Assembly (NCBI GenBank): GCA_035690485.1
Contig: DASSKL010000080.1
Coordinates: 1-64,000 of the forward strand
Length of the DNA stretch: 64,000 bases
Direction: 5' to 3'
From: Mycobacteriales bacterium
GTDB lineage: Bacteria > Actinomycetota > Actinomycetes > JAFAQI01 > DASSKL01
Numbering within the stretch: the stretch's first letter is position 1; each line of letters starts with the position of its first letter. The notes below the pieces were generated by a model. It was given only the letters and a program-made list of their open reading frames with translations. It was not told the DNA's origin and did not search any database. This document shows, piece by piece, positions 13,216-15,547 of this stretch. Made by a program: the position numbers and the translations under genes.

Positions 13216-13353
13216 ATGGGCAACAAGAACAAGGGCGGTCGCGAGGCCCGCAAGCCCAAGAAGGACAAGAAGTCCAAGGGCGTGCCGACCGCAACCCACA
13301 CGGTTCAGCAGGTCGTGCACCCCACGACCCCGCCGGCCACGGCCGGGCACTGA
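13216..13353 (+). CDS. Small basic actinobacterial protein (45 aa)
   Basis: It starts MGNKNKGGREARKPKKDKK, then a short Thr/Val/Pro tail. Lys and Arg dominate the first 22 residues, suggesting RNA or DNA contact. The ATG has GGGGGCG upstream. Similar short Lys-rich proteins occur in actinobacteria without known function. It stands alone between the ABC-F gene and the convergent propeller-thioredoxin gene, 3 bases from that gene's stop. Confidence 0.7.
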   Translation: MGNKNKGGREARKPKKDKKSKGVPTATHTVQQVVHPTTPPATAGH

Positions 13354-13356
13354 CGC

Positions 13357-14859
13357 TCAGTCGTCGTACCAGTCGTCGCGGCCGAGCAGGCGGGTGATCG
13401 CGGCCTTCAGCTCGTCGGGCGTCGTCGCGCCGACCTCGACGGCTGTCCCGTCGGTGTCAACGAAGACGTTCATCGGTACGCCGCGGATGCCGAGCGCCGC
13501 CGCGTAGTCGCCGGTCTCGTCGATCAGCACGGTGCCCTCGACGCCGTAGATGTCGCAGAAGTGCCGGGCCTCACCGGCTGGGTCGACGCTCTCCCAGACG
13601 TTGACCATGATGATGTCCAGGCCGAACCGGCCTGCGCGGCGGCGTAGGTCCTCGATGACCGGCGCCTCCACGTTGCAGGGGCCTCACCAGCTGGCGAAGA
13701 AGTTGAGGATGTACTTCTTCTCCGCCCACTCCCGGCTCTCCCGGATCCGCCCCTCGAGATCGGGCAGCCGGAAGGCCGGGACCCGCTGCCCGGTGAGCGG
13801 GTGCGGCGCGCTGGTGACGTCGTCGGCGGGCGGGCCGGTGAGCAGGTCTTCGACCACGATCAGGCTGGCGCTGCCGGCGTTGGAGACGAGCACCCAGCCG
13901 GTGACCGGGTCGACCGCGAGGTCGCCCGGACCCTTGCCGACCGGCACCCTCGCCCACTCGCGGCCGTCGTCGGCCCCGACGATGCTGATCGACCCCGCGC
14001 CGCGGTTGCACACGTAGAAGCGGTCGCCCGCAGGGGCCTCGGCGACGCCGACGGGCGCCCGCTCGACGGGCACCTCGTCGATGACGCTGCGGTCGTCGAG
14101 CCGGACGCGCACGATCGTGCTGTCGAGGGAGTTGGCGATGAACGCCGTGCCCGAGCGAGGGTTGACCGCGACCTTGCAGGGCCCTTCGCCGACCGCGATG
14201 CGCTCGACCGGCTCCATGCGCTCGACGTCGACCATCGTGACCGAGGCGGAGAAGAAGTTGACGCAGTAGGCCAGGCCGCGCTCGACGTCGACGTCGATGC
14301 TGCCCACGCCGAGCTCGGCGGGGACCACGGCAACCCGCTCAAGGGTGTCGCAGTCGACCACGGAGACCGTGCTGCCGGCCGTGTCGCCGCACAGCAGCAG
14401 CCGCCGCTGCGGGTCGTGGCCGAGCCCCGCGGGGTACTCCCCGACCTCGACCTCGTGCACGCGGTTGCCGCCGCGGGTGTCGATCGCCGAGATCGTGTTG
14501 CTGCGGGCGTTGGCGCAGAACATGCGGCCGGTCGGCTCGTCGAAGGCGGCGGGGATCGGCTCCTGACCGACCGGGATCTCCTCGACGGCTTCGAGCCGGT
14601 CGAGGTCGATGACCGTGACGGCGTTGCTGCGAGAGCAGGAGACGTAGGCCCGGCGCCCCGCGGGGTCGACCGCGACACCCTCCGGGCCCATGCCGACCGG
14701 GATCTCGGCGACGATGCGGTAGGCCTCGGTGTGCTGCGGAGCGGGCGGGCCCAGATCGACCAGACACGCGGCGCCGTCGGGGAAAACCGGCGCCACGCCC
14801 GGCACCTTCTCTCCGGCAGTCACGTAGCGCACCGCCCTTCGACGTCGGCCCCCCGACAT
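13357..14859 (-). CDS. Beta-propeller-TlpA thioredoxin fusion with in-frame TGA at the active-site Cys (candidate selenoprotein)
   Basis: Residues about 45-350 are a YVTN/YncE-type propeller with repeated blades (EGVAVDPAGRRAYVSCSRSN, GDLAVDPVTGWVLVSNAGS). A TlpA-like thioredoxin domain follows from PAFRLPDLEGR. The active site reads FFASW-TGA-GPC, where the family has WCGPC. The TGA (13684-13686) would be Sec392. The same frame continues for 108 codons of good thioredoxin sequence (DIIMVNVWESVD, GIRGVPMNVFVDTDG). Reading TGA as selenocysteine gives 500 residues. The alternatives are a nonsense mutation or sequencing error. Start choices are ATG 14859, GTG 14832 or GTG 14823 (best SD, GAAGGGCGG). 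There is no signal peptide. It is divergent from a TetR gene. Confidence 0.7.
13635..13672 (-). promoter_or_regulatory. Candidate bacterial SECIS hairpin after the TGA
   Basis: Starting 12 bases 3' of the TGA, the mRNA can form a long imperfect hairpin. Ten positions (+12 to +21 with +40 to +49) pair apart from one A-G mismatch. After a 2x2 internal loop, GGUC pairs with GACC (+24 to +27 with +34 to +37) around the loop AUCGAG. Position and size are compatible with a bacterial SECIS. The loop does not begin with G, as SelB-bound loops often do. It was drawn by eye; energies were not computed. Confidence 0.35.
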
Positions 14860-14947
14860 GTCGTGGAGCCATCCAATCAAACACTTGCTGGACTCGCCAA
14901 ACGACCGTTTCCCCGCGGCCTCCCGGCACATGCGGCACGATGGCCTC

Positions 14948-15547
14948 GTGTCGCAACGAGCCCGGATCCTGCGGCTCGCGCTGGAGCTGATGGCCCAGGG
15001 CGGCGCCGAGGCGATGAGCATGCGCGACCTCGCCGGCGCTGCGGAGATGAACGTCGCGACGCTCTACCACTACTTCCCGTCCAAGCGCGACCTGCTGACC
15101 GCGGTGCTCGAGGAGCCGGAGTACCGCAACGTGCTCGACGGCGAGCTGCCCGGAGCCGGGCCGGGCGGCCCGGTCGACGACCTCGCCCAGCTGCTGCAGG
15201 AGTCGTGGCAGGTCATGCTCGACGTGCAGGACTACGTGCGGGTGATGGTCGGCGAAGCACTGCGCGGCGACGACGCGGCGCGCAGCGTCGGCTCGAGCCT
15301 GCTGGGCACGACCGAGGCAGCGCTGCAGCAGTGGGCGGCCGACGTGCTGCACGAGCGCCAAGCGGCGCGAGCCGCCGCCATCGCCCGGATGCTGCGCGCC
15401 GTCATCGTCGGCGTGTTCATCGAGCAGCTGGCCGACGGCAGCGACGACACGTCCTGGTGCGAGCAGCGGGCGCGTGAGCTCGCACCGATGCTGGCCGGCG
15501 TCGTACGCCGTGAGGGTGGCGCACCCAAGTCGACGCACCGGCGCTAG
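14948..15547 (+). CDS. TetR/AcrR-family transcriptional regulator
   Basis: A 199-residue repressor. The N-terminal helix-turn-helix is MSMRDLAGAAEMNVATLYHYFPSKRDLL (shown here in parts: RDLAGAAEMNVATLYHYF then PSKRDLL), ending in the family-typical YxYFxSK pattern. The rest is a helical ligand and dimer domain. GTG 14948 is chosen; ATG 14930 is also in frame. It is divergent from the propeller-thioredoxin gene. The roughly 90-base gap contains CAAACACTTG (a CAA-N4-TTG dyad), a possible but weak operator. The ligand is unknown. Confidence 0.88.
   Translation: MSQRARILRLALELMAQGGAEAMSMRDLAGAAEMNVATLYHYFPSKRDLLTAVLEEPEYRNVLDGELPGAGPGGPVDDLAQLLQESWQVMLDVQDYVRVMVGEALRGDDAARSVGSSLLGTTEAALQQWAADVLHERQAARAAAIARMLRAVIVGVFIEQLADGSDDTSWCEQRARELAPMLAGVVRREGGAPKSTHRR

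Follow-up and report, generated by a model that had tools for sequence, protein, structure and literature searches.

An in-frame TGA that very probably encodes selenocysteine in a bacterial fusion of a YVTN-type beta-propeller with a thioredoxin domain

When a stop codon falls within the active site of an otherwise open reading frame, does it mark a broken gene or is it read as an amino acid? This question is raised by positions 13357-14859 of the window, i.e. the whole stretch of 64,000 nucleotides that was analysed here, where translation of the minus strand yields 500 codons with a single internal stop. A sequence-only reading of this DNA had proposed a candidate selenoprotein at these positions without giving a strand, and had claimed that the only in-frame stop lies at the first cysteine of a thioredoxin CxxC motif. 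This is indeed the case: the TGA at 13686-13684, corresponding to residue 392, is found in the context FFASW-[TGA]-GPC and stands where the active site would have its first cysteine. The terminal stop of the gene, at 13359-13357, is likewise a TGA. The start codon is uncertain, with an ATG at 14859 being possible, while a GTG at 14796 or 14805, preceded by GGAGAG, matches the N-termini of the relatives better on inspection. The elements of the gene required for the argument are the following:

13357 to 14859, minus strand: predicted coding sequence for the propeller-thioredoxin selenoprotein, continuing past the internal TGA (translation, Pfam, alignment)
13684 to 13686, minus strand: in-frame TGA, residue 392, taken as selenocysteine at the first position of UxxC (TGA in 16/16 homologous genes)
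13675 to 13677, minus strand: TGC codon of Cys395, the putative resolving cysteine of UGPC (invariant in 15/15 aligned proteins)
13846 to 14721, minus strand: predicted seven-bladed YVTN/YncE-type beta-propeller, residues 47-338 (profile matches, fold model)
13375 to 13797, minus strand: predicted ResA/TlpA/Redoxin-like thioredoxin domain, residues 355-495 (profile matches, fold model)
14637-14635, 14265-14263 and 14178-14176, minus strand: codons of the invariant propeller cysteines 75, 199 and 228 (15 aligned proteins)

Standard ORF calling divides this frame into two ORFs, 13684-15021 and 13357-13671, as would be expected if a nonsense mutation in the active site had left behind a pseudogene or split gene, with a propeller protein on one side and, on the other, a thioredoxin remnant that is either dead or separately re-initiated. 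The length of the open frame beyond the TGA does not by itself speak to the matter, as 108 open codons are unremarkable in such a GC-rich window (P about 0.26); they were accordingly rejected as stand-alone evidence, and the argument draws on homology and on the decoding machinery of the genome. Sequence profile analysis confirmed that thioredoxin-like sequence continues through these 108 codons, as the sequence-only reading had stated, with both Pfam PF08534 (Redoxin) and PF00578 (AhpC-TSA) recovered above cut-off across the stop (residues 356-477, E 4e-15). The Redoxin/AhpC-TSA fold, the UGPC motif and an invariant GVP (cis-Pro) segment place this domain in the TlpA/ResA-like family, and the N-terminal region was recovered as a YVTN propeller by TIGR02276 with 112 bits against a cut-off of 27.85. 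An AlphaFold2 model made through the TGA site, for which the input included 15 homologues, shows two intact domains with a mean pLDDT of 88.9 and a pTM of 0.85. In the model residues 47-338 form about 28 propeller strands, equivalent to seven blades, followed by a thioredoxin fold spanning approximately residues 355-495, in which residue 392 directly precedes a helix beginning at residue 393; this predicted placement is as expected for CxxC enzymes. A PDB profile search recovered the archaeal YVTN protein 1l0q, YncE and ResA as matches to the separate domains, and Foldseek recovered YncE-like propellers. According to the structural model, the break implied by a split gene would interrupt the active-site loop of a single fold, so that no working thioredoxin would result from either half, which argues against that explanation.

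Scanning a single genome for each species yielded five homologues, and profile searches over overlapping sets of 397, 395, 349 and 103 genomes, at strict thresholds of 1e-50 and 1e-40, added eleven further full-length matches, of which one lay on an already sampled contig (L054, the same contig as L025, counted once), as well as one gene cut by a contig edge. Together with the gene of the window these make 16 distinct full-length genes, which form two deep clades, the relatives being 49-56% identical to the window protein. TGA is present at exactly the same codon in all 16, followed by an in-frame continuation of 103-138 codons; the family thus displays the conserved in-frame UGA at a redox-active position that characterizes bacterial selenoproteins. 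In the 15 aligned proteins Cys75, Cys199 and Cys228 of the propeller are invariant, as are Sec392 and Cys395. The edge-cut homologue (from genome G1029) was excluded from the count, as it stops before the thioredoxin domain at the contig edge, and no homologue was found that ends naturally ahead of this domain. By eye, this gene (L086:1145-2550) adjoins F420 biosynthesis-like genes, namely CofE- and CofC-like ones.

The recurrence of the TGA at the same codon in 16/16 genes is hard to reconcile with a pseudogene, and the agreement of 16 genes from independent genomes practically excludes a misread TGC. No point was found in support of a sequencing error or of its companion explanation, a genome-wide reassignment of TGA. 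The gene of the window and the homologues L022, L023, L024 and L063 themselves terminate in TGA, which rules out reassignment as the explanation, and the matches to selA, selB and selD in the genome of the window contain no internal TGA; error and reassignment together retain next to no probability. TGA in close relatives is also what the sequence-only reading had named as support for Sec, though its accompanying expectation of cysteine in most homologues failed, with none of the 16 having Cys at this position. No Cys form was recovered among the overlapping sets of 397, 395, 349 and 103 genomes at the thresholds of 1e-50 and 1e-40, which are strict enough that remote Cys fusions could be missed, nor among the plasmids searched. 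Candidate Cys orthologues among relatives and plasmids were rejected, being separate propellers or thioredoxins, mostly of 25-35% identity, and in profile comparisons Cys occupied the position of the Sec exclusively in remote thioredoxin-domain families. Hence the family, within the present sampling, consists of Sec forms only. The pairing of Sec and Cys homologues that is usual for bacterial selenoproteins, though not strictly defining for them, is therefore missing here and counts against the assignment.

The genome of the window (3.13 Mb, 96.7% complete) encodes the complete set of Sec components that the sequence-only reading had proposed to look for: selA (415 bits), which overlaps selB; a SelB with EF-Tu-like domains and the SelB winged helix; selD (391 bits); and a tRNA-Sec with the anticodon TCA (77 bits, with ARAGORN in agreement). 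It further contains a second Sec gene, coding for an FdhA-like protein with an ENQARI-TGA-HSSTV site (L077:2232; contig C60, about 76,231), which is of the classic formate dehydrogenase type. The TGA of this gene is followed by a hairpin, with the loop AGUCU at +18, that conforms to the published bacterial SECIS rules, making it very likely that Sec is inserted at TGA elsewhere in the genome. Across the carriers, selA was detected in 14 of the 16 genomes, the remaining two being 71% and 84% complete. Within the family f74, selA is present in 66 of 103 genomes (9/11 carriers against 57/92 others); as it is common there regardless, its co-occurrence with the gene adds little, and it was set aside as too weak for stand-alone support.

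Beyond the TGA, dN/dS was read from close pairs, with values of 0.12-0.19 in the four closest gene pairs and 0.12-0.46 in the eight closest, the distant pairs being saturated so that pN/pS over all pairs is uninformative. The region downstream of the TGA is under purifying selection, which further counts against a pseudogene and, with the preceding observations, leaves the split-gene explanation exceedingly improbable. This selection, the conserved TGA and the Sec machinery uphold the original selenoprotein reading, and its refuting conditions of absent Sec machinery and of homologues ending before the thioredoxin domain both failed. Two further features of the transcript lie in the same region:

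13642 to 13680, minus strand: codons +2 to +14 after the TGA, with the top between-clade synonymous conservation (0.88 identity, rank 1 of 449 windows)
13635 to 13672, minus strand: candidate SECIS-like hairpin, whose apical loop begins 27-28 nt after the TGA (pairing analysis)

In 13-codon windows the synonymous identity of codons +2 to +14 (0.88) compares with a propeller average of 0.58 and a maximum of 0.72 in codon-usage simulations. Another synonymous-conserved stretch, seen near codon -238 in an all-pairs scan, was absent from the top between-clade windows and was dropped. In the candidate hairpin 86% of the cells are standard pairs as against 29-56% with a slid partner strand, the former figure being favoured by the derivation of the structure from one of the sequences; its energy relative to synonymous shuffles is ordinary (mean z -0.7). 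The rule for bacterial SECIS elements requires a hairpin after the UGA with the loop at 16-37 nt and a G in the first two loop positions, and some bacterial selenoprotein genes fail this standard model (PMC13188914). The candidate hairpin can form and its spacing fits the rule, while its first two loop positions lack the G; a strict scan, which demanded such a G, likewise recovered no conserved hairpin after the TGA. It is thus likely from the conservation and pairing patterns that an RNA element follows the TGA, though not a textbook bSECIS.

The post-stop synonymous conservation would equally fit a general readthrough signal, and hence a programmed or leaky UGA at which Trp, Cys or Arg is inserted instead of Sec. 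Against this, the stop is TGA in every case and invariably takes the place of the catalytic Cys in the UxxC motif, the carrier genomes mostly possess Sec machinery, and Trp or Arg at the catalytic position would destroy a thioredoxin-type active site; such readthrough is accordingly very improbable. The internal TGA therefore almost certainly encodes selenocysteine, judging from comparison of the sequences, and we make this assignment with high confidence. Taken as a whole, the observations are very probably best explained by a genuine propeller-UxxC selenoprotein with Sec at the UGA, functioning as a probable cytosolic thiol/selenol oxidoreductase.

Under the mechanism proposed for this selenoprotein, SelB and Sec-tRNA(UCA) would decode the internal UGA as selenocysteine, with the RNA element in the next ~40 nt assisting. 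The product would be a protein of 480-500 aa in which a seven-bladed YVTN propeller is joined to a thioredoxin domain of the ResA/TlpA-like UxxC type. In UxxC thioredoxin-fold selenoenzymes the Sec attacks and the Cys resolves. By analogy, Sec392 most likely provides the selenol that attacks a partner at a disulfide or another oxidised group, and Cys395 the thiol that resolves the resulting intermediate. The propeller probably binds this partner, its docking role being conjectural, and its three invariant cysteines could either have a structural role or act as redox partners to the Sec. The absence of any hydrophobic leader or export signal visible by eye at the N-terminus favours a cytosolic role, and the protein is probably a cytosolic oxidoreductase of the thiol/selenol type, although the assignment of function is made with low confidence and the choice of a substrate and reductant for the fusion would be conjecture. 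A fuller picture, of a Sec-only propeller-UxxC family restricted to a few Actinomycetota lineages, cytosolic, with a redox-active propeller and a non-standard SECIS hairpin, is possible but rather doubtful in all its parts together.

Operon logic provided no route to function, as the neighbours differ among the carriers; since the gene neighbourhoods are not conserved, no partner can be named. In the window a small basic ORF (MGNKNKGGREARKPKKDKKSKG...) at 13217-13353 on the plus strand is convergent with the selenoprotein gene and finishes just short of its stop. Upstream, a TetR-like regulator gene at 14858-15547 on the plus strand is divergently oriented, and is not conserved beside the other copies of the selenoprotein gene. 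The candidate starts of these two genes overlap, implying that at least one true start lies further in.

The 2026 inventory of prokaryotic selenoproteins lists 119 families or subfamilies in its Table 1; the propeller fusion is not named among them and the word "propeller" is absent from the inventory (PMC13188914). NCBIfam likewise gave nothing above cut-off except a generic YVTN repeat, in keeping with the statement of the sequence-only reading that it knew of no propeller-TlpA selenoprotein. The present family thus adds a domain architecture unnamed among the 119, and makes testable both the contribution of a propeller to a selenol enzyme and the extent to which SECIS hairpins of bacteria may deviate from the model. 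As only Sec forms were found, the usual search for Sec/Cys pairs would miss it. Most carrier genomes probably also have it annotated wrongly, because ordinary gene calling breaks the gene up into a propeller protein plus a fragment. The closest entries of the inventory are the UxxC proteins described as "Redoxin family protein" (PF08534, HEU0032618.1), "Thiol-disulfide isomerase-like" (cd02966) and "Prx-like thiol:disulfide oxidoreductase" (PF00578), which share Sec at the first UxxC position of a Redoxin/TlpA-type domain and are set apart, by description alone, in that no propeller is mentioned (PMC13188914). HEU0032618.1 and MBA3499694.1 are both named in reviews, and the former might be a relative of the window protein. 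An earlier marine survey reported that Prx-like selenoproteins occur as fusions, of which none is named as containing a propeller (PMC2398784). The NCBIfam model NF041054 (ResA-like WAxxUGC motif protein) resembles the window protein in its Sec-containing ResA-like domain and matches residues 350-479, but with 49 bits against a cut-off of 300, a UGC rather than a UxxC motif and no match to the propeller. ResA/TlpA/StoA oxidoreductases and YncE/YVTN propellers are separate, Cys-containing and mostly exported proteins; each matches its respective domain by sequence and fold, whereas the window protein has both in one chain, carries the predicted Sec and shows no evident export signal. NHLRC2 and SOQ1 were not evident homologues in the PDB profile or Foldseek searches and differ in their reverse domain order, six-bladed NHL propeller, CCINC motif and lack of Sec. 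Like the window protein they nevertheless combine a thioredoxin-like domain and a beta-propeller in a single chain, and in NHLRC2 the redox motif sits in the cleft between these two domains (PMC6107167).
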